A stretch of DNA of 64,000 nt. Origin: Rheinheimera sp. 4Y26. Its GTDB lineage: Bacteria; Pseudomonadota; Gammaproteobacteria; Enterobacterales; Alteromonadaceae. This document shows positions 140 to 18,646 of this stretch, in pieces; within the stretch, counting starts at the first letter, position 1, and the number at the start of each line of letters is the position of its first letter. A program made the translations under genes and the position numbers. The notes under the pieces are model-generated. The model saw nothing but the letters and a program-made list of their open reading frames with translations, ran no database searches and was not told the origin of the DNA. The stretch spans positions 124,001 through 188,000 of the forward strand of contig NZ_JAOBWS010000004.1 of assembly GCF_025245835.1 (NCBI RefSeq). The letters run 5' to 3'.

Positions 140-185
140 AACCAGGCCTTTGTATTTAATGTAAAAAGATAACGCAGCACATTTT

Positions 186-213
186 AAAAAAATGCCCCGG
201 CAGTCGGGGCATT
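186..213 (-). terminator. Rho-independent terminator of the NAD-GDH gene
   Basis: Stem AATGCCCC/GGGGCATT (191-198 with 206-213) has a 7-base loop. On the minus strand it is followed by a run of seven T (186-192). It lies 35 bases after the NAD-GDH stop codon and before pyrD, so the two genes are probably separate transcripts. Confidence 0.85.
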
Positions 214-247
214 TCTGTTTGATGTCAAACTTTAGTTCACAACCGCG

Positions 248-3200
248 TTATTTCACGTTGTCGCAGTGGTGGCTTAATAACATCAGCTCACGCAAGGCAA
301 CAGAGAACTTGGCGAACTCGTGGCTCTTGGTGGTTTTAAACTCGGCCAGCATCATGCTCCAGCGCGACAGCACCAGTTCATTCGACTTCAGCCAGTTCTG
401 GATCACTTCGTCTGACGAACAGGCGTTGTGACAGGTACGAACCACGACCTGAGACAGCGCACGTTGTTGCCAATCCAGCTCTTCGCGGTATGAAGCGCGC
501 GCCAGAGCCTGCCAGTGGTTGCTGACCGGCTGTTGGGTGATTTGCTCCAGGAACCAGTGTAAGTCCAGCTTGTCACCGAGCTTAAAGTAAATTTCCGCAG
601 CCAATAACAAGTCGGTTTTTTCCGCATCAGCGACCTGGGCAATATCCATCACCGAGAACACAGTGCTTAACTGTGCCAGATAACGTGCCACATTGACCGG
701 CACCTGCTGTGCCACCAGGCTGTCCTGATGTTCCTGCAGTGCTGCCGCTTCTGCAGACGCCAATAATCTTGGTAACTGCTCAGAAATTTGCACAAAAGCT
801 GGTTTGAAAAACGCCACAGTTTGCGCGATATCCATTGCTTTGTTGCGATGACGCAGGAACCAGCGTGTTACACGGCGCATAGTACGGCGTAACTGGAACA
901 ACAAGCGGGTTTGCAGATCAGCGGCAATGACGTTGTCTAAATCTTCCAGTTGATGCCAGATACTTTCCACATCAAACAGTTCACGGGCGATGGTGTAAGA
1001 AATAATGACTTCAGCCACAGTGGAGCCTGTTTCTTCCATCATCCGGTGCGCAAAATTGGCGCCCATATCGTTCACCAGCATATTGGCAAGCTTAGTGGCG
1101 ATAATTTCGGCTTTCAGCGGATGGTTTTCCATTTGTGTTGCATAACGCTCCTGCAACACTTTCGGGAATGCACCAATCAGCTCTTGTTTAAAGAACGCAT
1201 TGTCAGACACTTCAGGCGTCACCAGCTGCTCTTTTAACACCATTTTGCCGTAAGCGGTCAAAATGGCGAGCTCTGGACGGGTTAAACCAACACCTTTCAC
1301 CATCCGCTCTGCCAGCATGTCGTCCGTTGGCAGGAATTCCAGCTCGCGGTTTAACTTGCCGTCTTTTTCCAGGGCATGGATAAAACGGGTGTATTCTTTG
1401 AGCTGCTCAGCACCTAACAACGAAGAGACTGAAATACTCTGGGTCTGACGGTAACAGTCGTTAATGACGATGTCCGCCACGTCATTGGTCATGTCGTACA
1501 GCAACTCGTTACGCTGTTTCAGCGTCATATCACCGCTGGCGACCATGGCGTTGAGCAGAATTTTGATGTTCACTTCGTTATCTGAACAGTCAACACCACC
1601 GACGTTATCGATAAAATCGGTATTAATACGGCCACCGTTTGCAGCGTATTCAATACGGCCACGTTGGGTGGTACCTAAGTTACCGCCTTCACCAATAATT
1701 TTGGCTTTGACTTCTTTACCGTTTACACGCAGCGGTTCAGAAGCACGATCGCCCACTTCGGCATGGCTTTCGTCCGTCGCTTTGACGTAAGTACCGATAC
1801 CACCGTTCCAAATCAGGTCCACTTCCATCATTAATGCAGCGCGGATCAACTCATTCGGCGTTAATGAGGTTTTGTCAGTGCCAAGCATGGCCTGCATTTG
1901 CGGGCTCAGTTTAATGGCCTTGGCGCTACGCAGGAAGACACCGCCCCCTTCAGAAATCAGCTCTTTGTTGTAATCATCCCAGGTTGAAGTCGGCAGATTA
2001 AACAGGCGCTGACGTTCGGCAAACGAAGTGGCAGCGACCGGGTTTGGATCCACAAAAATATGCATATGGTTAAAGGCAACCTGCAGGCGGATATGCTCTG
2101 ATAACAGCATGCCGTTACCAAAAACGTCACCGGCCATATCACCGATACCAACCACGGTAAAATCTGTGGTCTGACAGTCAATGCCCACTTCACGGAAGTG
2201 GCGTTTCACTGATTCCCAACCGCCGCGGGCAGTGATACCCATGCCTTTGTGGTCGTAACCGTTAGAGCCGCCCGACGCAAAGGCGTCACCTAACCAGTGG
2301 TTGTATTCCAATGAAATGCTGTTGGCGATATCAGAGAAAGTTGCAGTGCCTTTATCTGCTGCCACCACCAGGTACGGATCGTCTTCATCCAGGCGCACCA
2401 CTTGTTTTGGCGGCACAATCTGGCCTTGCAGAATATTGTCGGTCACATCCAGTAAACCGCGGATAAAGGTGCGGTAACAGGCTTTACCTTCGTTTAACCA
2501 GGCTTCACGGCCACCGGTTTCAGGCAGTTTTTTACAAACAAAACCACCTTTGGCGCCTACAGGCACAATCACAGTGTTTTTCACTTGTTGTGCTTTCACC
2601 AGGCCCAGGACTTCAGTGCGGAAGTCTTCACGACGGTCAGACCAGCGTAAACCACCCCGTGCAACCTTACCAAAACGTAAGTGCACACCTTCCACCTTCG
2701 GTGAATACACAAAAATTTCGAAGAATGGCAGTGGCAATGGCATATCCGGGATCATGGCCGGACGTACTTTAAAGGAGATATAAGGTTTATCTGTGCCGTC
2801 AGCTGCTTTCTGGAAGTAGTTGGTGCGCACAATGGCCTGAATAATGGCCAGGAAACGACGGATAATGCGGTCGTCGTCCAGGTTTGCCACGTTCTCCAGC
2901 TGGGCCAGAATTTCAGTGTGCAGTTTATCGGCATCAGCCTGACTGTTGTTCTCAAGCGCAAACTTGGTGTTAAAAAGTTTCACCAGCAGATTGGCCAATA
3001 ACGGATACCGGCCAAAAGTCGATTCAACATAAGCCTGGCTGAAAGTACCGCCGATTTGACGTTTGTATTTGGCAAAAGCACGTAACAACGATGCTTCACG
3101 GCCCGTTAAACCTGCACCCAGAATTAAACGGTTAAAACCATCGTCTTCTAAATCACCTTTCCAGACCTTGGCAAAAGATTCCTGGAACAGCTGCTGGGCA

Positions 3201-5083
3201 GCTTCAAAGTCTAGTGGCACCTTGCCGTTTAATTCCATACTGAAGTTTAAGATCCAGCTGACCGAACCTTCAGGGCAACGCACGGCATAAGGAGTTTCAC
3301 CAATCACGCGCAGACCAAAGTTTTCCAGCATCGGCAACACGTCAGATAAATGGATTGGATGGTCTTTATGGAACAGGTTCAACCGCACTGCTTTAGACTC
3401 AGCGCTTTCTTCCTGTGGCCGGTAGAACAGCATTTCCAGCGTGTTGTCTTCGCTTAAGGCTTCCAGCTTGGCAATGTCTACCAAAGCATCATTTGGCAAC
3501 ATTTCTTCTTTATAGGCACGCGGGAAAGCGTTGACATATTTGCGGCTGAGCTCACGGCCACTCAGTTCACCAAAACGGCCAATCAGGGCTGTTTCCAGTT
3601 TATCTTCCCAGGTACGGGCCGCTTCAATCAGATTGTTTTCGATATCTTTCACATTGAACTCGATATTACTGTCGTTGATCCGGACAAAATAATGGGTCCG
3701 GGCCAGCACGGATTCAGAGAAATAGGTGGTAAATTCCACCGGTTCGGTACTGCCTAAAAACTGCTGCAGAATTTGCTGGGTTTCTTTACGCAGCTGTGTG
3801 TTGTAACGCTCGCGCGGCACATACACCATGGCGGAGACAAAACGGCCAAATGCGTCTTTGCGCATAAACAGCCTGGTCATGTCACGTTCCTGCATTTGCA
3901 GTACGCCAGTGGCAATTTCCAGCAGCTCATCGCTGTCTGCCTGAATCAGCTCATCACGCGGATAAGTTTCCAGAATATTCAACAGCGCTTTATAAGCATG
4001 GGTACCAACAGCAAAACCAGAACGGGCCATCACATTGGCCAGTTTGTTTTTCAGCAGTGGAATATCACCGGCGCTATTGTTGTATAACGATGAGGAGTAC
4101 AAACCGATAAAACGGTCTTCACCCACCACATTGCCGTTGGCATCAAAACGTTTAATACCGATGTAATCGATATAAGCCGGTCTGTGCACCCTGGATTTGT
4201 TGTTGGTTTTGGTCAGGATCAAAAGATCTGTGCTTAACGCCTGTTTGCGCGCCACATCCGGTAAATCTGACAACATTAAATCGCGCGACACAGAACGGCG
4301 CATTAAACCGAGGGCTGTGTCGGCCTGACCGGCGATGCGATAGTCACCCTGCACCGGCACTATGCTGTACTGGCGGTAACCCAATAACGTGAAGTTATCT
4401 TTGGCCAGCCAGTTTAAAAATTCGGTTGCTTCGGCCAGTTGTTCTTTGCTGGCTTTACCACAATGGTTTGGCAGCTCGCGGATCACCTGCTCCAGCTTGG
4501 CACGGGTTGGCTGCCAGTCGCTGACAGCAAGCGACACGTCCTGCATCACTGAATCCAGCTCAGCAACCAGATTGTCGATAGCCGTTTTGTCAGTCATCCG
4601 GTCGATTTCAATATGGAACACCGTTTGTTGGGTGCTCGGGTTGGCTTTGGTACCCAGTTTGTTAAATTCGGTGATATTGCCTTTGTCATCACGGAAAGTC
4701 TGCAGCGGGTAATGCAGCAGTAAATGCGCTGTGATGTTGTGGCGGTTTAATGCAATACGCACCGAGTCAACCAGAAACGGCATGTCTTTGACCACAATCT
4801 CAACAATAGTGTGTTTGGATTCCCAGCCATGACGGGCGATTTCCGGATTAAACACCCGGATTTTGGCGGCATCCTCAGTGTGGGTGTTAAAAGTTTGCCA
4901 CAGGCTTAAAGCTGCACCATATAAGTCGCTGTCATTGCGACCAAACATGTCTTCATTGGCAACATTGCCGTAAAGCGTGAAGGCGAATTTCTCGACCAGT
5001 TCGACCTGATCTTTAACTTTTTGGCGGATGAGTTTACTTACATTTTGTAGAAGTACAGATGGTTGACCGTCTATCAGTGCCAT
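248..5083 (-). CDS. gdhB: NAD-specific glutamate dehydrogenase, large (180 kDa) type
   Basis: This 1611-residue protein is the size of the large bacterial NAD-dependent glutamate dehydrogenases (Pseudomonas GdhB about 1620 residues). The enzyme converts glutamate to 2-oxoglutarate and ammonia with NAD+, mainly in amino-acid catabolism. The N-terminal ~700 residues carry the ACT-like regulatory region. The catalytic core follows, with RGGLRWSDRREDFRTE, the VGAKGGFVCKK stretch and the nucleotide-fold motif GIGDMAGDVFGNGM near residues 970-980. A helical C-terminal region ends the protein. The ATG is preceded by AAGGA at seven bases. It stands alone between two terminators, with a 281-base leader region. 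In relatives this enzyme is controlled allosterically, for example by arginine; nothing here shows that directly. Confidence 0.97.
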   Translation of the reverse strand: MALIDGQPSVLLQNVSKLIRQKVKDQVELVEKFAFTLYGNVANEDMFGRNDSDLYGAALSLWQTFNTHTEDAAKIRVFNPEIARHGWESKHTIVEIVVKDMPFLVDSVRIALNRHNITAHLLLHYPLQTFRDDKGNITEFNKLGTKANPSTQQTVFHIEIDRMTDKTAIDNLVAELDSVMQDVSLAVSDWQPTRAKLEQVIRELPNHCGKASKEQLAEATEFLNWLAKDNFTLLGYRQYSIVPVQGDYRIAGQADTALGLMRRSVSRDLMLSDLPDVARKQALSTDLLILTKTNNKSRVHRPAYIDYIGIKRFDANGNVVGEDRFIGLYSSSLYNNSAGDIPLLKNKLANVMARSGFAVGTHAYKALLNILETYPRDELIQADSDELLEIATGVLQMQERDMTRLFMRKDAFGRFVSAMVYVPRERYNTQLRKETQQILQQFLGSTEPVEFTTYFSESVLARTHYFVRINDSNIEFNVKDIENNLIEAARTWEDKLETALIGRFGELSGRELSRKYVNAFPRAYKEEMLPNDALVDIAKLEALSEDNTLEMLFYRPQEESAESKAVRLNLFHKDHPIHLSDVLPMLENFGLRVIGETPYAVRCPEGSVSWILNFSMELNGKVPLDFEAAQQLFQESFAKVWKGDLEDDGFNRLILGAGLTGREASLLRAFAKYKRQIGGTFSQAYVESTFGRYPLLANLLVKLFNTKFALENNSQADADKLHTEILAQLENVANLDDDRIIRRFLAIIQAIVRTNYFQKAADGTDKPYISFKVRPAMIPDMPLPLPFFEIFVYSPKVEGVHLRFGKVARGGLRWSDRREDFRTEVLGLVKAQQVKNTVIVPVGAKGGFVCKKLPETGGREAWLNEGKACYRTFIRGLLDVTDNILQGQIVPPKQVVRLDEDDPYLVVAADKGTATFSDIANSISLEYNHWLGDAFASGGSNGYDHKGMGITARGGWESVKRHFREVGIDCQTTDFTVVGIGDMAGDVFGNGMLLSEHIRLQVAFNHMHIFVDPNPVAATSFAERQRLFNLPTSTWDDYNKELISEGGGVFLRSAKAIKLSPQMQAMLGTDKTSLTPNELIRAALMMEVDLIWNGGIGTYVKATDESHAEVGDRASEPLRVNGKEVKAKIIGEGGNLGTTQRGRIEYAANGGRINTDFIDNVGGVDCSDNEVNIKILLNAMVASGDMTLKQRNELLYDMTNDVADIVINDCYRQTQSISVSSLLGAEQLKEYTRFIHALEKDGKLNRELEFLPTDDMLAERMVKGVGLTRPELAILTAYGKMVLKEQLVTPEVSDNAFFKQELIGAFPKVLQERYATQMENHPLKAEIIATKLANMLVNDMGANFAHRMMEETGSTVAEVIISYTIARELFDVESIWHQLEDLDNVIAADLQTRLLFQLRRTMRRVTRWFLRHRNKAMDIAQTVAFFKPAFVQISEQLPRLLASAEAAALQEHQDSLVAQQVPVNVARYLAQLSTVFSVMDIAQVADAEKTDLLLAAEIYFKLGDKLDLHWFLEQITQQPVSNHWQALARASYREELDWQQRALSQVVVRTCHNACSSDEVIQNWLKSNELVLSRWSMMLAEFKTTKSHEFAKFSVALRELMLLSHHCDNVK

Positions 5084-5265
5084 TTTTGTATCCTTGTTTT
5101 AATCTCTGCAGAGGGGAAGCAGGATTGTGCATTACATACAGAGCGTGTCAGGTGCGAAGTTTATTGCCTATTCCCGCGCTTTTCGAGCTTTATTTCCGCC
5201 TTTCAAACTGGTTGTACCAGAGCAAAAAAGCTGATTTGACAAGATATTCAGCCTTGTTAAATAAG

Positions 5266-5287
5266 AAAATGGCCCGCAGGCCATTTT
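5266..5287 (-). terminator. Likely terminator after the RND transporter gene
   Basis: Perfect 9-bp stem AAAATGGCC/GGCCATTTT with a 4-base loop. On the minus strand the 3' arm ends in TTTT and runs into CTTATTT. It lies 78 bases after the stop codon of the RND gene. A second inverted repeat, CAGACGGC/GCCGTCTG (5326-5351), sits between it and the stop codon but lacks a T tract on the minus strand. The rest of the 281-base gap (5084-5364) is the upstream region of the glutamate dehydrogenase gene, and I see no gene in it. Confidence 0.6.
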
Positions 5288-5364
5288 CATTAGTTTTTTT
5301 GCATAAAGATGCTGGATGGGTACAGCAGACGGCAATACATCAAGCCGTCTGTATTTTGGCGTTT

Positions 5365-7683
5365 TTAGCGATTTTTTGGCCAGAAGAAGGCCGCAAGTGC
5401 CGGCAGTACAAAAACTGCGCCCAGCATATTGACGATAAACATAAAGGTTAACAGTATGCCCATGTCTACCTGGAACTTCAGTGCGGAGAACACCCAGGTG
5501 CTGACGCCGATGGCCAGAGTGACCGCAGTAAAGAGCACGGCACTACCGGTCGACTTTAAGGCTTGAAAATAAGCCTGACGCAGCGGCACACCCTGACTCA
5601 GTGGTTGGGTCATATTGGTCAGAATATAAATACCGTAATCCACACCAATACCTACACCCAATGCAATTACTGGTAAAGTTGACACCGTCAGGCCAATTTC
5701 CAGTAACGTCATTAAGGCGGTTGCCAGTACTGTCACGACATAAAGTGGCAGGATCACGGCTAAAGTGGCACGGGCTGAGCGGAAACTTAACAGACACAGC
5801 AGGATAACAGCACCATACACGTACCAGGTCATTGGGTCCTGTGCAGCCGCGACCGCCTCGTTGGTGGCAGCCATTACACCCACAGGGCCTGATGCCAGCA
5901 TAAACTTCGTGGTATCTGTGCCAAGTTCGGCACCGATACGTTTGGCCTCTGCCACCACTTTTTCGATAGTTTCAGCTTTATGGTCATTCAGGAAAATAAT
6001 CACCGGCATCACAGAGCAATCAGGGTTTAATAAACCTGTGCTGGTTTCAACCCGGGAAGAAGACTGAACCAGAGACTCTGTGGTGCGTGGCAAAATCCGC
6101 CATTTGACGTTGCCTTCGTTAAAAGCCGCGTTGATAGTTTTTGACACTGAAGGCAAAGACACCGCACTTTGTACACCAGCTACGTTTTCCATTTGCCACT
6201 GGAACTGGTCAATCTTTTCCATAATAGGATGGAAAGTACAACCATTGGCATCGGTTTCTACCATCACATTGATGTAGTCTACCGAAATGGCATAACGGTC
6301 TGTGATCAGGAAAGTATCCTGGTTATAGCGAGAATCTTCGTGTAGAGATGACGCGCCAGGATGCAGATCGCCAATTTTCAGCTCTTTACTCTGGATATAA
6401 CCCAGCGTAAATAAGCCGGCCGTTAAAGCTAGAATGACAGCTGCGACTTTTGGCTCAGCGCAAGCCGACAGTTTGTACCAGAACTTGTCAGCGACAGGTG
6501 TGGGTTCCGATACTGCTTTGACGTAACTGGCTTTAAAACGCACATAAGACATCAACACCGGCAGCAGGATAAGGTTAGTCAGAATAATCACGCCAACACC
6601 TAAACTGGCGGTAATGGCCAGCTCACGAATGACGCCAATTTCGATAATCAGTAACGTGATAAAACCTACAGTGTCAGATAGCAGCGCCACACCGCCAGGT
6701 ACTAACAATCGGCGAAAACTGGCCTGAGCCGCTGTTTTTGCATCAAGGCCTGCCGCCACGTTTTTGCCGGTGGCGTTGATCATCTGCACACCGTGGCTCA
6801 CGCCAATGGCAAAGACCAAAAACGGTACCAGAATGGACATCGGATCGATACCAAAACCCATGACTGTTAATAACCCCATCTGCCAAATTACCGCTATCAG
6901 GGAACAGGCGATAGGCAACAAGGTTAAGGTGATAGATTTTGAGAATAAAAACACCATCACTGCGGTGATAAGAATTGCCACTGCAAAAAATGCCAGTACG
7001 CCTTTAGCGCCATTGGCAACATCACCGACCATTTTGGCAAAACCAATGATGTGTACGGTAATTTTGTCATTTTCAAACTGACCTCGTACATCTTTTTCCA
7101 GTTGATTGGCAAAAGCGATGGTGTCGAGTTTTTCGTTGGTGTCCGGGTTGATTTCCTGCAGTTGGGCTGTGACCATAGCGCAGCTATAATCGTCAGCCAC
7201 CATTCGGCCAACAATGCCCGCTTTTTCGATATTTTGTTTGACGATGGCAAGGCCATTGGCGTCATTGACAAAATCCGCAGGGATCACAGGACCACCGGCA
7301 AAACCATCTTCCACCACTTCAACAAAGCGGGTACTTGGGCTAAACAGGGATTTTACCAAAACCCGGTCCACACCAGACATGTAATAAACCTGATCATGGA
7401 TTTTGCGGAATGAATCAAAAAAGTCCGGGTTAAAAATATTGCCTGAGGCGTCACAAACTGAAATCAGAATATTATTGGCACCACCAAAATCTTTGGCGTG
7501 CTTCAGATAGGTCTGCATATATTCATGTTTGAGCGGAATATTTTTGGTAAAGGCAGCATCCAGTTTGATTTGGCTCGCCTTAAATAGCAAAAACAAGGTG
7601 ACCAGCACAAAAGCGACCAGCACCAGACCGCGATGCCGGAACAGCGCATATTCACATTTATTAATAAAACGGTTCGCACTCAT
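5365..7683 (-). CDS. RND-superfamily (MMPL-type) inner-membrane transporter
   Basis: This 772-residue integral membrane protein has the RND layout. One membrane helix (about 19-36) is followed by a large periplasmic loop, then a five-helix block (about 225-390). A helix near 415, a second periplasmic loop and a final helix block (about 615-770) complete it. The second half keeps the Asp of the usual proton-relay helix (GVGIGVDYGIY). The matching helix of the first half reads FAIGVSHGVQM, without Asp. It resembles the MMPL/hopanoid-type (HAE-3-like) RND proteins that move hydrophobic molecules, rather than AcrB-type drug pumps (about 1040 residues). The start is two bases after the stop of the Ycf48-like gene. 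It is the last gene of a four-gene envelope cluster. No membrane-fusion protein or TolC gene is nearby. Substrate unknown. Confidence 0.85.
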   Translation of the reverse strand: MSANRFINKCEYALFRHRGLVLVAFVLVTLFLLFKASQIKLDAAFTKNIPLKHEYMQTYLKHAKDFGGANNILISVCDASGNIFNPDFFDSFRKIHDQVYYMSGVDRVLVKSLFSPSTRFVEVVEDGFAGGPVIPADFVNDANGLAIVKQNIEKAGIVGRMVADDYSCAMVTAQLQEINPDTNEKLDTIAFANQLEKDVRGQFENDKITVHIIGFAKMVGDVANGAKGVLAFFAVAILITAVMVFLFSKSITLTLLPIACSLIAVIWQMGLLTVMGFGIDPMSILVPFLVFAIGVSHGVQMINATGKNVAAGLDAKTAAQASFRRLLVPGGVALLSDTVGFITLLIIEIGVIRELAITASLGVGVIILTNLILLPVLMSYVRFKASYVKAVSEPTPVADKFWYKLSACAEPKVAAVILALTAGLFTLGYIQSKELKIGDLHPGASSLHEDSRYNQDTFLITDRYAISVDYINVMVETDANGCTFHPIMEKIDQFQWQMENVAGVQSAVSLPSVSKTINAAFNEGNVKWRILPRTTESLVQSSSRVETSTGLLNPDCSVMPVIIFLNDHKAETIEKVVAEAKRIGAELGTDTTKFMLASGPVGVMAATNEAVAAAQDPMTWYVYGAVILLCLLSFRSARATLAVILPLYVVTVLATALMTLLEIGLTVSTLPVIALGVGIGVDYGIYILTNMTQPLSQGVPLRQAYFQALKSTGSAVLFTAVTLAIGVSTWVFSALKFQVDMGILLTFMFIVNMLGAVFVLPALAAFFWPKNR

Positions 7684-7685
7684 GG

Positions 7686-8711
7686 TTATTCAGTTTCTTT
7701 TGTAGGAATTGTTTTGATACCAACTTCGGTTGCCAGAACCAGGTTAGCGCCAATTTTGACCGCGTTCAGAATGGCTTTGCCGTCAGCTTCGTTCATCGCA
7801 CTGAAGCTCTGGCCATCGTCTACACTGACCATTAAAGTACCGGCATTGCCCAGTAAATACACTTTACCATCGCTGGTGCTCAGTACACTGTTCAGCGTAG
7901 CCGGTGATGGCACCTGAATTTGCTGCCAGCTCTGGCCCTGATCGGTGCTACGGAATACGTGGCCGCGTAAGCCAACGGTGATTAAGCTCAGTTGTGCCGT
8001 TCTGGTGATACCAAATAGCGAACCATTATAAAATTCCGGCTGGCGCTGCCAGGTGGCGCCAAAGTCCAGACTCTTGGCAAAAAAGCCTGCTTCACCAACC
8101 AGATACAAGGTACTGCCGTCGGCATATAAACGATTAAAATGCGGTAATACTGACTCGGCTTCAATGGCATACGACTCGGGATCAGTTTCTTTTAATTCCG
8201 CAAGCAGCGCCTGATCGTCTTCACTGGCTAGTTCCGGGTGAAACTCACTCTGCCAGCTTTGGCCGCCATCTTTGCTGCGGTAAAACATCCCATAGGCACC
8301 TACAGCGATGCCCTCTTTGGCGTCTTTAAAAAATACATCAAATAAAGGTTTGTCGAGTTCTGGCAAAAATTGCTGAATCACCCAGCTTTGGCCACCATCG
8401 GCTGAATGTAAAATGCTGGCATCATGCCCAACCGCCCAGCCATGCAACTCATCGGCAAAATAAACCGAGTTCAGATTTGATTGCAGTGGCACCGGCATCT
8501 GTTGCCAGTTCGTACCGTCCTGACTCAGCAGTATGTGGCCTCTTTCACCTGCACTGACATAAAACTTACCCGCAACAGGTACTATGTCAGTCAGGACTGA
8601 ATGCACAGCCTTTGGTAATAAATAAGCTGCCTGTGGCTGCACCTGTGCCGCTGCCATATGCGATGTCAGTAAACAACATACACTCAGACCAGAAAGTAGT
8701 TTTGAAATCAT
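7686..8711 (-). CDS. Exported Ycf48-like/BNR-repeat beta-propeller protein
   Basis: The reading frame stays open upstream to 8804, but MISKLLSGLSVCCLLTSHMAAAQ at the chosen ATG (8711) is a clean signal peptide. That gives 341 residues. At least six repeats share the pattern S.D.G.SW, seen as SADGGQSW, SKDGGQSW, SLDFGATW, STDQGQSW, SQDGTNW and SVDDGQSF. This is the signature of BNR/Asp-box and Ycf48 propellers. In plants and cyanobacteria Ycf48 assembles photosystem II. In non-photosynthetic bacteria such proteins are uncharacterised and often lie beside RND transporters. It should be periplasmic and may dock the RND protein to its partners; that is inference. No good ribosome-binding site is visible. 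The gene starts 32 bases after a strong hairpin. Confidence 0.85.
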   Translation of the reverse strand: MISKLLSGLSVCCLLTSHMAAAQVQPQAAYLLPKAVHSVLTDIVPVAGKFYVSAGERGHILLSQDGTNWQQMPVPLQSNLNSVYFADELHGWAVGHDASILHSADGGQSWVIQQFLPELDKPLFDVFFKDAKEGIAVGAYGMFYRSKDGGQSWQSEFHPELASEDDQALLAELKETDPESYAIEAESVLPHFNRLYADGSTLYLVGEAGFFAKSLDFGATWQRQPEFYNGSLFGITRTAQLSLITVGLRGHVFRSTDQGQSWQQIQVPSPATLNSVLSTSDGKVYLLGNAGTLMVSVDDGQSFSAMNEADGKAILNAVKIGANLVLATEVGIKTIPTKETE

Positions 8712-8742
8712 TAGAGCTATTACTCGAGGGTTAAACAGAAAC

Positions 8743-8773
8743 AAAAACGGTTGGCAACAAGCCAACCGTTTTT
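8743..8773 (-). terminator. Intercistronic terminator or attenuator between the DUF1329 and Ycf48-like genes
   Basis: Perfect 13-bp stem AAAAACGGTTGGC/GCCAACCGTTTTT with a 5-base loop. On the minus strand the 3' arm ends in five T, followed by GTTTCTG. It lies 15 bases after the DUF1329 stop and 32 bases before the Ycf48-like start codon. There is little room for a new promoter downstream, so it probably reduces, rather than abolishes, transcription of the last two genes, or it stabilises the 3' end of the first two. Confidence 0.75.
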
Positions 8774-8787
8774 GCCGGACTTTCAGA

Positions 8788-10149
8788 TCAACGGGTTCCC
8801 TCACGGCGCAGCGCTGCCGGCGTGAAGTCGTTATCCGATAATTTCACTGAGAAATTATACATCTTATCTTCGTTATCTAAACCGATCGCAATATAACGAC
8901 GTGAGTTCAGATCATGATAGACCTCGAGTGTACTCCAGTGAGTTGGCACTTCATAATAGTTCAGACCATGGGCTGTAGCGACACGGTATAACTCACCACG
9001 CGCATCATAAAGGTCCGCCACATGAATTTGCCAGCTGTCCTCGTCGATATAAAACACCCGTTTACCGTATACGTGGCGCATGCCGTCTTTTAACTTGGCT
9101 TCAACAACCCAAACACGGTGTTTTTCCCAGCGTACGTAGTCTGGGTTTAAATGACCAGCGGTTAACAGACTGGCGTATTTAGTGTCTTTGCTATGCAGTT
9201 TGTAGCTGTTGTATGGAATTAACATTTCCTGCTTGCCTTTGAGCTCCCAGGTGTAACGGTCTGGTGAACCGTTAAACATGTCAAAATCATCTGTGGTGCG
9301 CAGACCATCTGAAGCTGTACCTGGCGCGTCATAAGCCACATTTGGTGCACGGCGTACACGGCGCTGGCCAGTGTTGTAAGTCCAGGCCTGACGTGGTGTT
9401 TTCACCTGGTCCATGGTTTCATGGACTAACAGTGCAGTACCCGCCAGACGTGCCGGCGTCGTCACGCTTTGTTTAAAGCGGAACAGAATGTTTTCCGCCT
9501 GCAAAGCCTCTGCGGTTGCTTTTTGATCTGAATATTTGAACATAATTTGTTCATCAAAACCGATCAGGGTATAAGCACCTGTTGCCGTTGGAGCAGCCTG
9601 GCCACCGTTACGGGTTGCAGCCACACCACGGAAACGTACGATGTGGTTCCAAATCGCTTCCAGACCGTTGGCAGGAATTGGGAACGGAATACCGATAGCG
9701 GCATTAATAATACCGTTGCCACCTTGAACCAGTTCGGCTTTGCCGGCAATTTCCTTAGTTGCATCATACACATACTGTGGGTATGACGCTGAACGATGTG
9801 TTGGATACACGTTCATCTTAAAGGTTTCCGGATACAGGTTAAACAGCGCCAGCTGACCCGGTGACAATAACGATTTGTATTGTTCCAGATTGGCTTTGGT
9901 CACTGTGTACACCACTTTATCAGCGGCAAATGGATCCGGGTGATGATCGCCTGGCTTATAACCAGCAGGCGCCGACTGAATACCACCGGTCCAGGCCGGG
10001 ATACTGCCGTCTTTGTTACCGGCTTTTTCCGCGCCAAGCGGTGTTAAATCAGCACCTAAACGGGCAACCTGGTCTGGTGCAACTTTGGCCATTGCGCCAC
10101 AACTTAAAACCAGCGCAATCGCGGACGATAGCAGGGTGAGTTTTTTCAT
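8788..10149 (-). CDS. DUF1329 exported protein (outer-membrane-associated, lipid-handling-like)
   Basis: This 453-residue protein starts at the ATG at 10149 and opens with signal peptide MKKLTLLSSAIALVLSCGAMA. Conserved DUF1329 features follow: ARLGADLTPLGAEKAGNKDG and IPAWTGG near the mature N terminus, and a C-terminal part rich in beta strands with VEAKLKDGMRHVYGKR and FYIDEDSW. To my knowledge the family is grouped with LolA/LolB-like folds, which bind acyl chains in a half-barrel; no specific substrate is proven. It follows the DUF1302 gene by 16 bases, and the pairing of these two families is widespread. An upstream in-frame extension to 10203 lacks a signal sequence and was not used. 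It ends before a strong hairpin. Confidence 0.9.
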   Translation of the reverse strand: MKKLTLLSSAIALVLSCGAMAKVAPDQVARLGADLTPLGAEKAGNKDGSIPAWTGGIQSAPAGYKPGDHHPDPFAADKVVYTVTKANLEQYKSLLSPGQLALFNLYPETFKMNVYPTHRSASYPQYVYDATKEIAGKAELVQGGNGIINAAIGIPFPIPANGLEAIWNHIVRFRGVAATRNGGQAAPTATGAYTLIGFDEQIMFKYSDQKATAEALQAENILFRFKQSVTTPARLAGTALLVHETMDQVKTPRQAWTYNTGQRRVRRAPNVAYDAPGTASDGLRTTDDFDMFNGSPDRYTWELKGKQEMLIPYNSYKLHSKDTKYASLLTAGHLNPDYVRWEKHRVWVVEAKLKDGMRHVYGKRVFYIDEDSWQIHVADLYDARGELYRVATAHGLNYYEVPTHWSTLEVYHDLNSRRYIAIGLDNEDKMYNFSVKLSDNDFTPAALRREGTR

Positions 10150-10165
10150 AAGACTGTCTCGTCCC

Positions 10166-12334
10166 TTATAATGAATATTTGATGTTAAAAGACACAAAAT
10201 CACGGTCTTCAGTGTTATTGGTGGTGCCTACACCGTCGAAGAAGGCGTTGTAGGAAATTTCAGCTGACCATTGGTTCAGATAATCGAAGCTGACAGCATA
10301 GCTCAGCGATTTTTTATCTTCAGAGAACATAAACAACGGATCAGGTGTAATACCGTTTACGTCATGTGAGAAGGTCAGACGTTGTGACAGGTTCACACCA
10401 GCTAAAACGTTGTTGTAGTCGGCTTTGGCAACGACACGGTAACCCCATGCTGAAGCTGTTGGGAACGGGTTGGTTTCCGGGCCATTGGATAAACCAGTGT
10501 GTAAACCGGTTTTAATCACTAAAGGACCGCCTACACCATTGGTTCCCATCAGCGGATAACCGCTACGGTCAGTATTTGGACCGTTTAAACGCAGTATGTC
10601 CTGATGGGGCATATCTTTGATTTTAATACCACCAATTTCAGCCAGTAAGGTGAAGTTATCGGTGTTCAGCACAGGGCCGAATAAATGGGTAATAGTCACC
10701 TGTGCCTGAGTGGTATCTGCCAGGATATAACCCTGGGCAAATTCACCCGGCTGAACTTTTTTACCATCATAACGGCCAATTTGTGAAATACCGGCAAAAC
10801 CGAGGAAGTTTGCCAGTGCCGGATTTGTTGCTGCGCCATTGGCCAGCTGCTCCGGCATACCGGCATACAGAATTTCTACGTCGTCGATTTGCAGTGGTTC
10901 ATCCTGACGGTAGGCCAGTTCACCTGCGATAGAAGTACCTTCCAGTGTGGTGTTAAAGCTAAAACCATAAAGTTTGATATCTTCCGGATATTCAATCAGA
11001 CCTTTTGACATGCCTTTGAGGTTCGACACGTTTTCTTTGGTCATATTACCGGCGTTGGCAACCAGATAACCGATATCAGCCTGCACTGCCGCAAGGCGGA
11101 AGTCAGAGGCAATACCCGAAATAACCGGCGTGCGGCTGTGGTAATTCATGTAATACAAAGCAAATTCAGTGTCGTTCAGTTCAGGCGCGAAATATTCTAA
11201 CTTGGCACCATACTGACCACCGTCTTCCGGCTCAATTTCACCGGCATCGCCATAAGGACGCAGCGTAACTTTTGTTGGATAAGCCAGATAAGACGCTGAT
11301 AAAGCGCTGATTGCAGCCTGAGCCTGTGCTTTTTGCGCGGCAGAAGCCTGTGGATTGGCAAGTACAGCGCTGGCCGCTTTGATATTGGTGCCGATGCTGT
11401 TTAAACCAGCCAGTAAGGTTGATAAATCAAGATCCGGGTTACCGGCAAAACCTAACTGAATATTCTGGTTGTAACCGCCTTTACCGGCAAAGTCGTTGGT
11501 GGAGAAATAAGTGCCTGGCACCGGCAGGTAGCTGTTTTGCCAATCGTACTGATAAAACACTTCAGCTGACAGCTGTTCAGTTAAACCTAAAGATGCTGAG
11601 ATCATCCCTACCGGAATATAAGCTTCTTTTAAATCAGCACCTGGTAAACGGGCGATACCGACATCGATTGGTGTGATGTTGATACCGTGCTGAATTAACG
11701 TACTTTCACCCCAGCTTAATACCTGATTACCGACACGGATGGATAATGGGTTAGCACCATCATTCAGCGCAAAATTGGCAAATACATAAGCATCTAATAA
11801 ACGCAGGTCACGACAGGCTAAATCACGGCCTTCATCATCGGCACATGGATCCACTCTGTTGCCTGAAACAGGATTGGTGTAAGCACCATCATTGTCCATC
11901 AGGGCGGCGTCATAAAAATACATAAAGCGGGTAAAGAGACCAAAATCACCTTTGGTCACTGATAATTCGTGAGTGCCTTTAAACAGCTCAGAGAACATGT
12001 CACCTTTGTCGTAGTTCAGGTTGCCGGCATCACCGTTTGATGAATAACCGCCTCTTTGTTGCCAGACTTGTGACGAGGTGTAGATAGTGTTACTTGCAGC
12101 GTTGTAACCAGTCCAGTTCAGCGCCGGATTGTTGGCTTTACTGATAGTGTCCCAGTTTCTGTCCTCAGCGCGCCAGCTGGCGCCATAAGAAAAGCTTGAG
12201 TCAAATACAACTTCTACGTCGTCGCCTAATGTATAACTGGCGGCTTGAATGGATGTTGCAGACAAGGCTAACAGCGCAGACGCGACACCTATTGCTAAAG
12301 GATTTTTAGCAAAGGCAAATGGCCTTTTGTTCAT
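10166..12334 (-). CDS. DUF1302 outer-membrane beta-barrel-like protein
   Basis: This 722-residue protein opens with a signal peptide (MNKRPFAFAKNPLAIG...SIQA). Alternating strands typical of an outer-membrane barrel follow, ending in FVSFNIKYSL, a plausible C-terminal barrel signal with a hydrophobic last residue. The N-terminal VEVVFDSSFSYGASWR and later QVLSWGESTLIQHGINI are DUF1302 hallmarks. Acidic loop segments and an Ala-rich stretch around residues 310-350 would lie outside the barrel core. Members are linked by genome context to uptake or export of hydrophobic compounds. The start has a strong GGGGGAG ribosome-binding site. It is the first gene of the four-gene cluster and would be the outer-membrane exit or entry point of that system. 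Confidence 0.88.
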   Translation of the reverse strand: MNKRPFAFAKNPLAIGVASALLALSATSIQAASYTLGDDVEVVFDSSFSYGASWRAEDRNWDTISKANNPALNWTGYNAASNTIYTSSQVWQQRGGYSSNGDAGNLNYDKGDMFSELFKGTHELSVTKGDFGLFTRFMYFYDAALMDNDGAYTNPVSGNRVDPCADDEGRDLACRDLRLLDAYVFANFALNDGANPLSIRVGNQVLSWGESTLIQHGINITPIDVGIARLPGADLKEAYIPVGMISASLGLTEQLSAEVFYQYDWQNSYLPVPGTYFSTNDFAGKGGYNQNIQLGFAGNPDLDLSTLLAGLNSIGTNIKAASAVLANPQASAAQKAQAQAAISALSASYLAYPTKVTLRPYGDAGEIEPEDGGQYGAKLEYFAPELNDTEFALYYMNYHSRTPVISGIASDFRLAAVQADIGYLVANAGNMTKENVSNLKGMSKGLIEYPEDIKLYGFSFNTTLEGTSIAGELAYRQDEPLQIDDVEILYAGMPEQLANGAATNPALANFLGFAGISQIGRYDGKKVQPGEFAQGYILADTTQAQVTITHLFGPVLNTDNFTLLAEIGGIKIKDMPHQDILRLNGPNTDRSGYPLMGTNGVGGPLVIKTGLHTGLSNGPETNPFPTASAWGYRVVAKADYNNVLAGVNLSQRLTFSHDVNGITPDPLFMFSEDKKSLSYAVSFDYLNQWSAEISYNAFFDGVGTTNNTEDRDFVSFNIKYSL

Positions 12335-12651
12335 CTTGTGATCTCCCCCCCTGTCCCTGCAGGTCTATTTTGTTTTTGTAATGAATGAGCCGGTTCAACT
12401 GCTCTGATCTCTGCTCACTTGGGTAAAATAATTACATCATTTTATAAAGGGCGCAAGGCTTGCGATGTCGTAAATCTGTTGATTTGTCTTTAGTTTTTTC
12501 TGCGAACTGTCCGATTCTGTCAGTATTGGCCAGACCTCAGTTTAACTGGGTTTACAAAAAATGTACGAATAAGGGTTAAGTTGATGAAAACAAAAGGCAA
12601 ATGACAAAATTTTCCAGCCTGCGTTTTAATCTGCCGTTTAAAGTAGCTACT
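12335..12651 (-). other. Upstream region of the DUF1302 cluster
   Basis: This is 317 bases without a gene, AT-rich in places. On the minus strand, TTGCGC (12456-12451) is followed after 16 bases by TAATTA. This is only a weak match to a sigma-70 promoter. No terminator, tRNA or repeat was recognised. Confidence 0.35.
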
Positions 12652-12876
12652 CTAATTTATTTTTTTAAGCCCAATAAACTTACCCGTTGCTGTGGTCGTC
12701 AGTTCAAAATAACCATTTAAACCAAAATGACTGATATAAGGCCGGAAATGGTGGGCTGGCAGCTGCACTTTTTCGCCGCTGTCTGCCCACACTAACACTT
12801 GTGTAATAGCACCCTGATAATACGCGAGGCACTGCTCTGCACTGAGCACTGCGTGAAATCTATAGGTTTTGTTCAT
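12652..12876 (-). CDS. DUF2835 family small protein
   Basis: This 74-residue protein has the pattern of the DUF2835 family: RF...LS.E..LAYYQG......V...SGEKVQLPAHHFRPYISHFGLNG.FEL......FIGLKKI. The function is unknown. The family is common in gammaproteobacteria and is often found beside pepN. The ATG at 12876 overlaps the pepN stop codon as TGATG, which implies translational coupling; a GTG one codon earlier (12879) is also possible. It is predicted cytosolic, with no signal peptide or membrane segment. Confidence 0.8.
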   Translation of the reverse strand: MNKTYRFHAVLSAEQCLAYYQGAITQVLVWADSGEKVQLPAHHFRPYISHFGLNGYFELTTTATGKFIGLKKIN

Positions 12877-15479
12877 CACTGCAGACTTCGGCTGACCTTT
12901 TCATACAAATCATTGCTAAGTCCCGGTAACGCGAGCAGTTGCTGCAGTTGCTTTTGCATCAGCTGCTGCCGGTTTTGGTCAAAACGTTTCCAGGACAACA
13001 GCGGCGTGACCAGTCTGGCTGTCAGCTGCGGATTGACCGCATCAAGTTTTTGCAGGATTTGGGTCAGCAGCAGATACCCCCTACCGTCTGTGCGATGGAA
13101 CTGCAGCGGGTTTTGCATGGCAAAAGCACCATACACAGCCCTGACTCTGTTGGGATTGGTCCAGCTAAATTGCGGGCACTCTGATAACGCGGCAAGACTG
13201 TCAAAGACAGCGGGCGATGGGCTGATTGCCTGCACACTGGCCCATTTATCAAACACCTGCGGGTTCTGCGCAAAACGCTGACCGAGATCGGCCAGCATAG
13301 TTGCAGCGGTATGACTTTCAGCAAAAACGGCAGCTTTAATAGCGGCCAAACGGTCCGTCATATTGTCCGACTGCTGATAATGCGAAAGTAACAGTTCATC
13401 ATGGCCGCTCAGCGCCAGGTAAGACAAACATAATGCCTGCAGTTGCCTGCAGCCGGTTTGGGTCTGTGAATACTGATAAGGAGCGCGCGGTAATTTGTGG
13501 TAACAGGCCAGTAAGTCAGGCTGCAAAGCCAGGGCTATTTGTTGGCGGAAATCCTGTAAGCTTTGCAAAATTGCATCCACCGGGATCTCATCGTATTGTT
13601 CAGCCAGGGTGTCGTAACCAGGCAGCGTTAATAATTCTGCGGTAAAAGCCAAATCAGCGAGCGGCTGTTGCAGCAGTTGTTGCATACTGGCAATCAGCGC
13701 TTGTGGGATCATCACTGTTGATTGTGCTGAGGCTGATTTTTCTTGTTGCAGCCGCGCGGCTTGTTCAACGGACTGATGAACCAAAGCTGACCACAGTTGT
13801 TGCATCGCATCCCAGCGCGCGACCCCATCCTGCGCTTTGGCGGCAATCAGCAGCAACTCCTGCGTTTGATATTGCACCTGTAGCTTCACAGGCGCAGAAA
13901 AATCGGCCAGTAACACCGGCACCACATCGTCCGGCACATTGCTAAAACGCCACTCGGCACGTTCGTCGTTCAGTACCAGCAATTGCTGCTGATGATAATC
14001 AGTACCGGCACTGACAAGTTCAAAACGGACCGGTAGCACCAGTGGTAACTTGGCGCTGCCATCTGCTGTTGCCGGCGTATGTTGACTAAGGCTGAGATGC
14101 AGACATTTTTCAGTGCTGTTGTAACTGTAAGTTGCACTAAGCACCGGGGTACCGGCTTGCTGGTACCAGCGGCGGAACTGCTGAAGATCAACACCGCTCG
14201 CGTCCTGCATCGCCTGCACAAAATCATCACAGGTGACGGCCTGGCCATCATGCCGTGCAAAATACAGATCCATGCCTTTTCTGAAACCCTCAGCACCCAG
14301 CAAGCTGTGTTGCATCCTGATCACCTCAGCGCCTTTGTCGTACACTGTCACGGTATAAAAGTTATTCATCTCAAGCACTTGCTCAGGCCTTATCGGGTGC
14401 GCCATAGGGCCAGCGTCTTCGGCAAACTGGGCAGTGCGGATGGTTTTTATCGCATCAATGCGGCATAAAGTTGGCGAGCCCATATCGGCACTGAACTGCT
14501 GATCACGGAACACCGTCAGGCCCTCTTTTAAACTGAGCTGGAACCAGTCACGGCAAGTGACCCTGTTACCGGTCCAGTTATGGAAATACTCATGACCGAT
14601 AATACTTTCAATATGGAAATAGTCAGTGTCGGTGGCGGACTCCGCATCAGCCAGCACGTATTTGCTGTTAAAAATATTCAGGCCTTTATTTTCCATGGCG
14701 CCCATATTAAAAAAGTCGACAGCCACCACCATATACACTTCAAGATCGTACTCCAGACCATAGGTGGTTTCGTCCCAGCGCATGGCTTTTTTCAGCGACT
14801 CCATGGCAAATTCGGCACGGCTTTTATTGCCTTTATCCACATAAAACGCCAGTTTGACCTCTCGGCCGCTGCGGGTTTGATAGCTGTCTTCGAGCACATC
14901 AAAATCACCTGCGACTAAGGCAAATAAATAACAAGGTTTAGGGAAAGGGTCGAACCAGCTGACACGACGTCTGCCATCGGCGAGTAACGCTGAGGCGGTT
15001 TGATTGCCATTTGATAACAGGTGCGGATACTTTGTGCTGTCAGCAATGATATGGGTGGTAAACACAGCAAGCATATCAGGGCGGTCCGGATAATAAGTGA
15101 TACGGCGGAATCCTTCGGCTTCACACTGGGTGCAATAAGCACCATTGGAAAGGTATAAACCTTCCAATGCTGTGTTTGCGGCCGGGTTTAGCAGAGTCAC
15201 TATTTTCAGTTCAAATACGTCAGGCAAGTCCTCTAATATCAGCTGTTCGTCATCAAGCTGGTAGTTTGTGACCAGGGTGCCGTTGAGCCAAACCCCCTCA
15301 AGTTGCAGATATTGACCATCCAATACCAGGGGCGTAACTTCGCCTGTTCTGCGCCATTGGCTGATGGCTGTGACCCGGGTTTGTTCCGGTGCTAAATCAA
15401 ACTCAAGCTCAATGGTATCAATGGCATAAGATGGTGCCTGATAGTCAGCTAATCTTTTTGCCTGGCGGGTTTGACTCAT
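12876..15479 (-). CDS. pepN: Aminopeptidase N, M1 family
   Basis: This 867-residue cytosolic zinc aminopeptidase is close to the 870 residues of E. coli PepN. It removes N-terminal amino acids from peptides in the last steps of protein turnover. The exopeptidase motif GAMEN is near residue 260. The zinc site HEYFHNW begins near 297, with the third ligand Glu in LKEGLTVFRDQ. These spacings match the E. coli enzyme. The frame is open 26 codons further upstream, but the ATG at 15479 (MSQTRQAKRLADY) has GGAG at a good distance and aligns with the known start. It is co-transcribed with the DUF2835 gene and separated from nhaC by a terminator. Confidence 0.97.
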   Translation of the reverse strand: MSQTRQAKRLADYQAPSYAIDTIELEFDLAPEQTRVTAISQWRRTGEVTPLVLDGQYLQLEGVWLNGTLVTNYQLDDEQLILEDLPDVFELKIVTLLNPAANTALEGLYLSNGAYCTQCEAEGFRRITYYPDRPDMLAVFTTHIIADSTKYPHLLSNGNQTASALLADGRRRVSWFDPFPKPCYLFALVAGDFDVLEDSYQTRSGREVKLAFYVDKGNKSRAEFAMESLKKAMRWDETTYGLEYDLEVYMVVAVDFFNMGAMENKGLNIFNSKYVLADAESATDTDYFHIESIIGHEYFHNWTGNRVTCRDWFQLSLKEGLTVFRDQQFSADMGSPTLCRIDAIKTIRTAQFAEDAGPMAHPIRPEQVLEMNNFYTVTVYDKGAEVIRMQHSLLGAEGFRKGMDLYFARHDGQAVTCDDFVQAMQDASGVDLQQFRRWYQQAGTPVLSATYSYNSTEKCLHLSLSQHTPATADGSAKLPLVLPVRFELVSAGTDYHQQQLLVLNDERAEWRFSNVPDDVVPVLLADFSAPVKLQVQYQTQELLLIAAKAQDGVARWDAMQQLWSALVHQSVEQAARLQQEKSASAQSTVMIPQALIASMQQLLQQPLADLAFTAELLTLPGYDTLAEQYDEIPVDAILQSLQDFRQQIALALQPDLLACYHKLPRAPYQYSQTQTGCRQLQALCLSYLALSGHDELLLSHYQQSDNMTDRLAAIKAAVFAESHTAATMLADLGQRFAQNPQVFDKWASVQAISPSPAVFDSLAALSECPQFSWTNPNRVRAVYGAFAMQNPLQFHRTDGRGYLLLTQILQKLDAVNPQLTARLVTPLLSWKRFDQNRQQLMQKQLQQLLALPGLSNDLYEKVSRSLQ

Positions 15480-15593
15480 AATTGCTCCGTTGATCGTTGC
15501 TGGTATTGTGCCTTGCTGCGGTTGTGGCAAGTGTACTGAAATCAGTGGCCTGTGCAACCTGCTTTGCTGGCACAGATATATCGGATGACATAA

Positions 15594-15619
15594 AAAAACC
15601 TGAGCTTGCTCAGGTTTTT
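15594..15619 (-). terminator. Terminator after nhaC
   Basis: Perfect 11-bp stem AAAAACCTGAG/CTCAGGTTTTT with loop CTTG. The T tract continues for two more bases on the minus strand. It lies 48 bases after the nhaC stop and before pepN. The A-rich 5' arm means it could also stop transcription from the other strand. Confidence 0.85.
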
Positions 15620-15667
15620 AGTTTTAACGAAGGGCTAAGCGATATTACAGCGACCGCTGCAATGACA

Positions 15668-17143
15668 TCAGCCTTTAATTGCCACCGGGTTTGGCACTGA
15701 CGTTGGTGGTGTCAGTTTCAGGATCTTGATACCGCAGTACGCATAGATAATGGCTAAAACCGGATTAATCAGGTTGAAGAACGCATAAAAAATGTATTCC
15801 AGCGGGCTGACGTTGAGCACGCCATGCATATAGGCACCACAGGTATTCCAGGGCACCAGCGGACTGGTAATGGTGCCGCCGTCTTCCAGCGTGCGTGACA
15901 GATTCACTGGTGCCAGCCCTCTTCTGGCATATTCGTCTTTATACATTCTGCCCGGCATCACAATGGCCATATACTGATCAGCAGTCAGAATATTGGTGGC
16001 AATACAGGTCGCAATAGTACTGGTGATTAAAGAGCCTGTGCTATGCGCTTTGGCCAGAATCGCTTCCACAAAACGGCGCAATAAACCTGTGTGCTCAAGC
16101 ACCGAACCAAAAACCATGGCCGACATAATCAGCCAGACAGTGTTCATCATTTTTGCCATACCACCGCCGGACAATAACTTATCCAGTTCAGCATTTCCGC
16201 TTTCGATCACAAAACCGCTATGTAATGTGCTCCAGATCACTTTGAGCAAGCCAAGCGCTGTCGGCAAAGTGTCATCCGCCATTTTATTCACCAGTTCAGG
16301 CTGGAACAGCAATGCCCAGACACCTCCGAGTAATGCACCGATAAACACTGTTGGGAAAGCAGGTACTTTTTTAATCGCCATGATCATCAGCACCAGCATA
16401 GGCACCAGGTTCAACAAGCCGATATTAAACTGCGCCTGTAAATCAGCGCTGAGTTTGACTATTTTTTCTGCGTCCGCGACAGCTCCACTGTTGAAGCCCA
16501 GAGCAGCAAAAATAACAATGGCAATAACCAGACTTGGAATTGTGGTCCAGGTCATATGGCGGATATGGTCAAACAGTTCAGCACCTGCCACGGCCGGCGC
16601 CAGATTGGTGGTGTCTGACAAAGGCGAAATTTTATCACCAAAATAAGCACCGCTGATAATTGCACCCGCAGTGATGACCGGTGACAAACCAAGCCCCACT
16701 GACACGCCAATCAACGCGACACCTATGGTTGCGGCTGTGGTCCATGAGCTGCCGATAGACATAGACACAATGGCGCATAAAATACAGGTAGCCGCATAAA
16801 ACCAGGCTGGATCCAGCACTTGCAGCCCGTAATAGATTAAAGCCGGTACTGTACCTGCCAGTAACCAGGTGCCAATCAGTGCGCCTACGGCAAACAGAAT
16901 CAGCACAGCGCCCAGCGACAATGAAATGCCATGGATCATGGCTTTTTCCATCTCAGCCCAGCTGTAACCATTTTTTAAGCCGATAATGACGGCGATAGCA
17001 GCCCCAACAAAAAGCGCGATTTGGTTTGGACCATAAGAGGAATCACTGCCGTAAAGGTATACCGACAGGCTTAACAGGATGATTAATACCACCAGTGGAA
17101 TTAACGCATCCAGCAGACTGGGTCTTTTGATTTGATTTGTCAT
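15668..17143 (-). CDS. nhaC: Na+/H+ antiporter, NhaC family
   Basis: This 491-residue protein has about twelve hydrophobic segments and fits the NhaC group. Family-like stretches include GSSWTTAATIGVALIGV, ISGAYFGDKISPLSDTTNLAPAVAG and EDGGTITSPLVPWNTCGAYM. NhaC proteins exchange Na+ for protons at the inner membrane; some relatives exchange organic acids such as malate for lactate. The preceding gene on the same strand is a Na+-dependent SNF symporter, 41 bases away. The pair may therefore couple Na+-driven solute uptake to Na+ export; that link is inferred. The substrate (ion only, or organic anion) cannot be read from sequence. Confidence 0.88.
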   Translation of the reverse strand: MTNQIKRPSLLDALIPLVVLIILLSLSVYLYGSDSSYGPNQIALFVGAAIAVIIGLKNGYSWAEMEKAMIHGISLSLGAVLILFAVGALIGTWLLAGTVPALIYYGLQVLDPAWFYAATCILCAIVSMSIGSSWTTAATIGVALIGVSVGLGLSPVITAGAIISGAYFGDKISPLSDTTNLAPAVAGAELFDHIRHMTWTTIPSLVIAIVIFAALGFNSGAVADAEKIVKLSADLQAQFNIGLLNLVPMLVLMIMAIKKVPAFPTVFIGALLGGVWALLFQPELVNKMADDTLPTALGLLKVIWSTLHSGFVIESGNAELDKLLSGGGMAKMMNTVWLIMSAMVFGSVLEHTGLLRRFVEAILAKAHSTGSLITSTIATCIATNILTADQYMAIVMPGRMYKDEYARRGLAPVNLSRTLEDGGTITSPLVPWNTCGAYMHGVLNVSPLEYIFYAFFNLINPVLAIIYAYCGIKILKLTPPTSVPNPVAIKG

Positions 17144-17184
17144 TATTGCTACTCAGTTGCCCTTAAGGGCGTTTTTTGTAATTG

Positions 17185-18564: not shown

Positions 18565-18597
18565 GCGTAAAACCTAAAATAAACGACACAAAAAAAC

Positions 18598-18623: not shown

Positions 18624-18646
18624 CGGTCGAGCGTAAAGCGGCTGAA

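Follow-up and report, generated by a model that had tools for sequence, protein, structure and literature searches.

An AmeABCD-type operon of Rheinheimera and its possible role in the uptake of fatty acids or lysolipids

The window analyzed here is a 64,000-nucleotide stretch of the Rheinheimera sp. 4Y26 genome (contig NZ_JAOBWS010000004.1, positions 124,001 to 188,000), in which positions 5365-12334 of the minus strand carry four genes transcribed in the order A to D. They encode a DUF1302 outer-membrane barrel (A), a DUF1329 periplasmic protein (B), a Ycf48-like β-propeller (C) and an inner-membrane resistance-nodulation-division (RND) transporter (D); the families and their order had been given in a preliminary description and are confirmed by open reading frame (ORF) coordinates and Pfam. 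The module is of a kind described before, and the Rheinheimera operon is a member of the AmeABCD type. We propose that it forms a trans-envelope line for the uptake of fatty acids or lysolipids, a reading that we judge to have about an even chance of being right. The direction of transport is its weakest step.

AmeABCD of Castellaniella defragrans 65Phen was reported in 2018 as a "tetrapartite RND transporter" for monoterpene tolerance; it agrees with the Rheinheimera module in its four families and their order, has no membrane-fusion protein or TolC, and its authors put AmeD in HAE3 (PMC6394551). The ame genes are induced by monoterpenes and belong to a monoterpene island, whereas the Rheinheimera copy occupies a core position, with pepN on one side and the glutamate dehydrogenase (GDH) gene on the other. 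The shared families and order, together with the Pseudomonas putida and regulon reports discussed below, mean that the kind is already described. The preliminary description was thus right that these families recur together elsewhere, but its "under-described rather than unique" overlooks a module that had been named and deleted as AmeABCD. Its idea of a non-canonical mover of hydrophobic compounds fits the conservation, AmeABCD and the P. putida work; it gave no direction and no particular substrate.

Neighboring genes and the substrate

Related operons outside the pepN/GDH block offer a clue to the substrate in the genes observed beside them. In 47 such loci with 85 immediate neighbors, seven neighbors encode VolA/Pla-1 lipases, all upstream of A and on the same strand, and five encode AMP-binding acyl-CoA ligases, also on the same strand; at positions 2 and beyond, each kind was counted 2 times in 392. 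One-sided Fisher tests of immediate against later positions give 1.2e-4 for the lipase and 0.0025 for the ligase, values inflated by related taxa. The profiles used to call lipases, ligases and FadL derive from members adjoining the operon or the lipase. In a Pfam tally of the immediate neighbors, Lipase_bact_N is commonest on the A side (7/40) and AMP-binding on the D side (4/45). VolA/Pla-1 phospholipase is the best NCBIfam name for all four lipases scanned, one of them over the cut-off. Of the four ligases scanned, two are best named as long-chain fatty-acid-CoA ligase, one as FadD11-like fatty-acid-CoA ligase and one as 3-(methylthio)propionyl-CoA ligase. Furthermore, in one genome (G087; L094, 4558-8568) D is fused to an acyl-CoA ligase in a single frame of 1336 residues; the fatty-acid-CoA ligase names of this fusion and of three of the four ligases are all under cut-off. 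Separately, L092, L155 and L160 carry a gene of one and the same family directly upstream of A on the same strand, which in L092 encodes a protein kinase with a cyclic-nucleotide (cNMP)-binding domain.

The lipase and ligase link appears to be new as a substrate clue: the available parts of papers on DUF1302 and DUF1329 contain no tie to VolA-type lipases, FadL or FadD, although no search combining DUF1302 with lipase or FadL terms was made. Literature searches on FadL-independent uptake and on Tween 20 or random-barcode transposon sequencing (RB-TnSeq) found nothing.

FadL is not known to work with a carrier and an RND pump. In Vibrio cholerae, VolA is encoded by vca0863 and a FadL homologue by vca0862 (PMC9496633); judged by these locus numbers, the genes for the outer-membrane channel and the VolA-family lipase adjoin. 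An independent TIGR03502 search of 369 genomes of the class matched 52 at E 1e-20 or better and gave 53 lipase loci, four of which lacked a lipase from the first gene caller and were re-scored by coordinates. FadL lies within 400 bp of the lipase in 21 loci (20 on the same strand; L270 on the opposite one), and A in 10, always on the lipase strand, so that DUF1302 stands in the FadL place in 10 of the 53. A lies about 1 kb away in two more, a further locus has FadD and A at distances of 2.2 kb and 4.1 kb, respectively, and FadL and A occur together in none. By sequence, FadL is of a family other than DUF1302, and the 12 loci checked gave no cross-matches between the A and FadL profiles. FadD is also close by in several FadL-lipase loci, so the FadL and A kinds of cluster look alike in design. 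Three loci (L240, L251 and L265) hold A beside a VolA-type lipase in the barrel-plus-lipase form of FadL-VolA, with neither B nor D found in the stretch fetched and C absent from the four genes to each side. A genome-wide exclusion of FadL by the operon was considered and rejected, since the trend is not significant (see below) and Rheinheimera has both.

Two P. putida genes, PP_2018 and PP_2019, presumably encode a Ycf48-like protein and an HAE3-type RND protein. The proposal of uptake also rests on the need of the P. putida homologues for growth on Tween 20: PP_0765 and PP_0766 (DUF1302 and DUF1329) are essential on it and PP_2018 and PP_2019 correlate with them (PMC10866462). As in Rheinheimera, DUF1302 and DUF1329 proteins are thus associated with a periplasmic protein and an efflux-type transporter, with predicted contacts, although in P. 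putida they belong to two loci by locus number and in Rheinheimera to one operon. In published co-folding, the PP_2018-PP_2019 contact is strong and the others weak (PMC10866462), and the earlier suggestion that the propeller acts as a scaffold fits this AlphaFold contact. Together, the neighboring genes point to fatty acids or lysolipids as substrate and less surely to uptake, which is favored by the RND-ligase fusion and by the exchange of A with FadL beside lipases.

The four proteins and a candidate transport path

A (10166-12334, minus strand; 722 residues, with a signal peptide by reading) matches PF06980 with 533 bits. DUF1302 is its sole Pfam match at E 0.1 or better, and membership of the FadL (Toluene_X) family was rejected on that ground. 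Its AlphaFold model (predicted local distance difference test, pLDDT, 73.5) has about 18 strands, counted by eye from the DSSP line. The nearest solved folds are OprD/Occ channels (OccK2, Z 23.6, root-mean-square deviation 3.2 over 311 residues), with AlgE close (Z 22.4); FadL is not among the 50 Foldseek or 50 VIA matches listed for A, a similarity to it still being possible. Since Occ channels import small acids whereas AlgE is an exporter, the fold of A gives no transport direction.

B (8788-10149, minus strand; 453 residues from the likely start) matches PF07044 with 532 bits and also Pfam LolA_like with 48.6 bits. According to its model (pLDDT 87.5), the DUF1329 protein contains a LolA fold, as found in LolA, LolB and the solved DUF1329 protein 4z48: the best Foldseek match is LolA3 of Porphyromonas gingivalis (E 1.8e-17), with a template-modeling (TM) score of 0.82 on the target and 0.45 on the query. 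The low query score reflects extra segments in B, which sets it apart from LolA and LolB, as does an RND rather than an ATP-binding cassette partner in the operon. C (7686-8711, minus strand; 341 residues from the likely start, secreted by reading) matches PSII_BNR with 78 bits and the solved Ycf48 chains 5ojr (E 1.8e-21) and 2xbg (E 6.2e-21).

D (5365-7683, minus strand; 772 residues, hydropathy peaks at 12-41, 221-432 and 625-769) matches Pfam MMPL with 83 bits. Its best NCBIfam match is HAE3 TIGR00921, with 160.6 bits under a cut-off of 351.9. Of the earlier label "MMPL/hopanoid type", the first half stands, while the hopanoid transporter HpnN was rejected (57.3 of 751.85 and 20 of 1100 bits for its two models), as was the sterol transporter BstA (26.6 of 1400 bits). 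D resembles HpnN and MmpL3/4/5 as an MMPL-type RND protein, with profile matches in the Protein Data Bank to MmpL5, MmpL4 and MmpL3, but falls far below the HpnN cut-offs and differs from MmpL5 in one half. All 134 aligned sequences, near-duplicates among them, retain S296-H297 in the first half of the protein and D682-Y683 in the second. In MmpL5 each of the halves that aligned carries D-Y, where the first half of D has S-H, and an RND paralogue from the Rheinheimera genome has Asp in each half. From family knowledge we infer the meaning of these positions and their placing in transmembrane helices 4 (S296-H297) and 10 (D682-Y683). The Ser-His/Asp-Tyr pair may form an asymmetric proton relay, a candidate role suggested by the alignment.

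For the lineage that holds the Rheinheimera operon, we propose the following working order; it builds on the families, their conserved order, the model folds of A and B and the neighboring genes, and we infer the substrate, the contacts and the direction. Barrel A would admit a fatty acid or lysolipid at the outer membrane, and the LolA-like carrier B would shield it across the periplasm. Propeller C would dock B on D, the proton-coupled RND protein D would pass the cargo to the inner membrane, and an acyl-CoA ligase (FadD) would trap it there. By analogy, B and D might act like NPC2 and NPC1, joined to a FadL-like channel. That pair likewise combines a soluble carrier of hydrophobic cargo with an RND-fold membrane protein; the likeness is one of analogy only: B is not a known homologue of NPC2, and ABCD is bacterial and coupled to a barrel. 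A more specific version is a FadL-independent, energized importer of fatty acids or lysolipids, in which DUF1302 replaces FadL beside VolA-type lipases and a LolA-fold carrier serves an inward RND protein. That protein, with an asymmetric relay (Ser-His in helix 4, Asp-Tyr in helix 10), would deliver the cargo to FadD, RND protein and ligase being one polypeptide in a single genome. This version we hold tentatively, as somewhat short of an even prospect.

Operon layout, conservation and genomic setting

Signal peptides and spacing, read from the sequence, favor starts at 10149 for B and 8711 for C, and the longest-ORF starts (10203 and 8804, respectively) are probably too far upstream. With the favored starts the intergenic gaps are 16, 76 and 2 bp, which makes a single transcription unit likely. 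The operon is flanked by pepN-DUF2835 on one side and GDH on the other, with genes for a Na+/H+ antiporter and an SNF symporter also around it. As stated before, no membrane-fusion protein or TolC-type gene accompanies it: none is found among the 11 ORFs of at least 150 residues overlapping positions 1-20000, eight of which were scanned with Pfam and three judged by reading (two plus-strand ORFs within called genes, and 18647-20671). A canonical HAE1 tripartite pump was therefore rejected, no such partner being present in the operon or the Pfam-scanned flanking genes.

Upstream of A, at 12472-12485, lies the perfect palindrome AAATC-AACA-GATTT, a possible operator, with one match in the window against 0.04 expected. 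It precedes A in 19 of 20 loci of the genus and is absent from most loci of other Alteromonadales genera. As to control by FadR or PsrA, the available parts of two regulon papers name no such operon.

Within the genus, 21 of 22 genomes have a full-length DUF1329, while that of the remaining one (G016) is divided between two contigs, and the A-B-C-D order and pepN-GDH setting are kept in all 20 loci fetched; the operon is therefore not a chance arrangement. D of Rheinheimera sp. UBA8519 is 98% identical to that of the window, and A and B of the G008 locus are 100% identical to the window copies. Among 143 genomes sampled from the class, 16 (our own included) have collinear A-B-C-D by coordinates and three more (G112, G046 and G133) permuted or partial sets; of the class loci fetched, 15 of 20 are ABCD. 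A further set of 80 loci from genome contigs, kept as best matches rather than as a random sample, comprises 64 ABCD, 2 ABBCD, 7 BCD, 1 BBCD, 2 ACD, 1 CD and 3 with D only, several of the incomplete ones stopping at contig ends. pepN and GDH both stand beside the cassette in 35 of the 80, GDH alone in 1 and neither in 44. Related loci span Shewanella, Pseudoalteromonas, Alteromonas, Colwellia, Desulfuromonadales, Opitutae and a Nitrospirota metagenome-assembled genome, and the order is kept across several phyla. Tandem DUF1329 genes occur within the cassette in L154, L169 and L178. For the orthologous place in Shewanella, a literature search on the presumed locus tags SO_2594-2598 found no paper.

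The Rheinheimera genome also contains a second set (L204; contig C11:270001-280000, positions 2475-8244) with a regulator that is TetR-like by reading, a 777-residue RND protein (24% to D), a LolA_like protein of 292 residues and a 610-residue ORF without a Pfam match that, by reading, may be a LysM-plus-barrel protein. The set has the carrier-plus-RND logic of ABCD, without a propeller.

Direction of transport and alternative readings

The tree of D (101 sequences, L188 as root, AmeD not among them) bears on the choice between explanations. Its 25 leaves from the pepN/GDH block form one clade (support 1.0), and the sister of this clade (support 0.85) holds every copy labeled lipase- or ligase-linked; by reading, the lipase cases and the ligase cases each fall in about five places. 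Forty plasmid records carry a D homologue. Nine of the 13 plasmid copies in the tree group together in a single clade (support 0.97), with L188, L193, L102 and L101 elsewhere, and the Rheinheimera copy lies outside it. L095 (G028) has pepN-A-B-C-D-GDH outside the Alteromonadales clade, as sister to the plasmid catabolic clade, and its position suggests that the pepN-GDH setting may predate the split of the lineages.

Several observations weigh against uptake of fatty acids or lysolipids. The sister grouping is supported at no more than 0.85, and the lipid-linked clade includes two plasmid copies. None of the 36 pepN/GDH-block loci, the Rheinheimera operon included, has a lipase or ligase neighbor. 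The neighboring ligase of L149 is the one named 3-(methylthio)propionyl-CoA ligase, over its cut-off, and the RND-ligase fusion occurs in 1 of 76 genomes searched, two genomes of the same genus giving no match at E 1e-60. By profile count, the 12 plasmid loci have no lipase or ligase at position 1; by annotation, a ligase directly precedes A in two plasmid copies of the catabolic clade (the profile count put that of L191 at position 4, probably owing to a sub-threshold score of A there, and missed that of L104), so a ligase neighbor is not special to the lipid-linked clade. Neither barrel is near the lipase in 19 of the 53 lipase loci, five of them at a contig end. Strong FadL (>200 bits) is found in 4 of 19 ABCD genomes versus 53 of 124 others, a trend that is not significant (p 0.083). 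The host genome itself has FadL (312 bits) and a VolA-type lipase (839 bits) elsewhere, unlinked to the operon, so that a need for ABCD does not follow. The P. aeruginosa protein PA3923 is presumably a DUF1302 protein. It is reported to be needed for full biofilm on laminin (PMC8547006), a role that the uptake model leaves unexplained. Finally, the published ameABCD deletion data were read as export (PMC6394551).

That export reading, which we consider possible but less likely than uptake, would have D clear excess hydrophobic compounds (lipase-released fatty acids, terpenes or aromatics) from the inner membrane, to be passed outward through B, C and A in the manner put forward for AmeABCD. 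Most characterized RND pumps are exporters, and lipase or ligase neighbors would also fit a safety valve. Without ameABCD, cells grow less well on monoterpene hydrocarbons, tolerate monoterpenes less and accumulate more Nile Red when treated with carbonyl cyanide m-chlorophenylhydrazone (CCCP); the Nile Red difference is slight, however, and efflux kinetics are almost identical in both strains (PMC6394551). The four families also belong to predicted AphS/R/T regulons of Betaproteobacteria, where their authors suggest a role in coping with toxic aromatics (PMC6449761), and a "Nanopod" cluster from a benzene culture has DUF1329, YCF48 and MMPL proteins with a porin-like protein (PMC13101534). 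Consistent with such a role, 9 of the 12 annotated plasmid regions (14 were opened) have, by reading, ring-cleavage, aromatic, β-oxidation or CoA-transfer genes nearby. There is no catabolic island at the Rheinheimera locus, where the neighbors are the pepN, DUF2835, GDH, antiporter and symporter genes named above, and both the acyl-CoA ligase fusion and the exchange of A and FadL beside lipases fit uptake better.

Envelope lipid homeostasis, in which the core Alteromonadales lineage would move an endogenous lipid between membranes as housekeeping rather than as a nutrient, seems to us improbable. It would agree with the LolA-like carrier, with the presence of DUF1329 in all 22 genomes of the genus and with the fixed pepN-GDH locus, but VolA-type lipases and acyl-CoA ligases are linked to the sister clade, and the P. 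putida homologues show a carbon-source phenotype (PMC10866462). That the barrel-carrier and propeller-RND pairs merely share a locus and have separate functions is very hard to credit: the P. putida pairs are far apart by locus number, and L240, L251 and L265 pair A with a lipase in a fetched stretch that shows neither B nor D, but the Tween 20 phenotype is common to the four P. putida genes, which also have predicted contacts (PMC10866462), and the order is kept over several phyla.

If uptake of fatty acids or lysolipids by the AmeABCD-type line is correct, four widespread families would gain a substrate through a second route of entry, which may explain lipid uptake by some lipase-bearing bacteria that have no strong FadL. 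It would also represent a bacterial RND system running inward with a soluble carrier, and the exporter reading of AmeABCD would call for re-testing.

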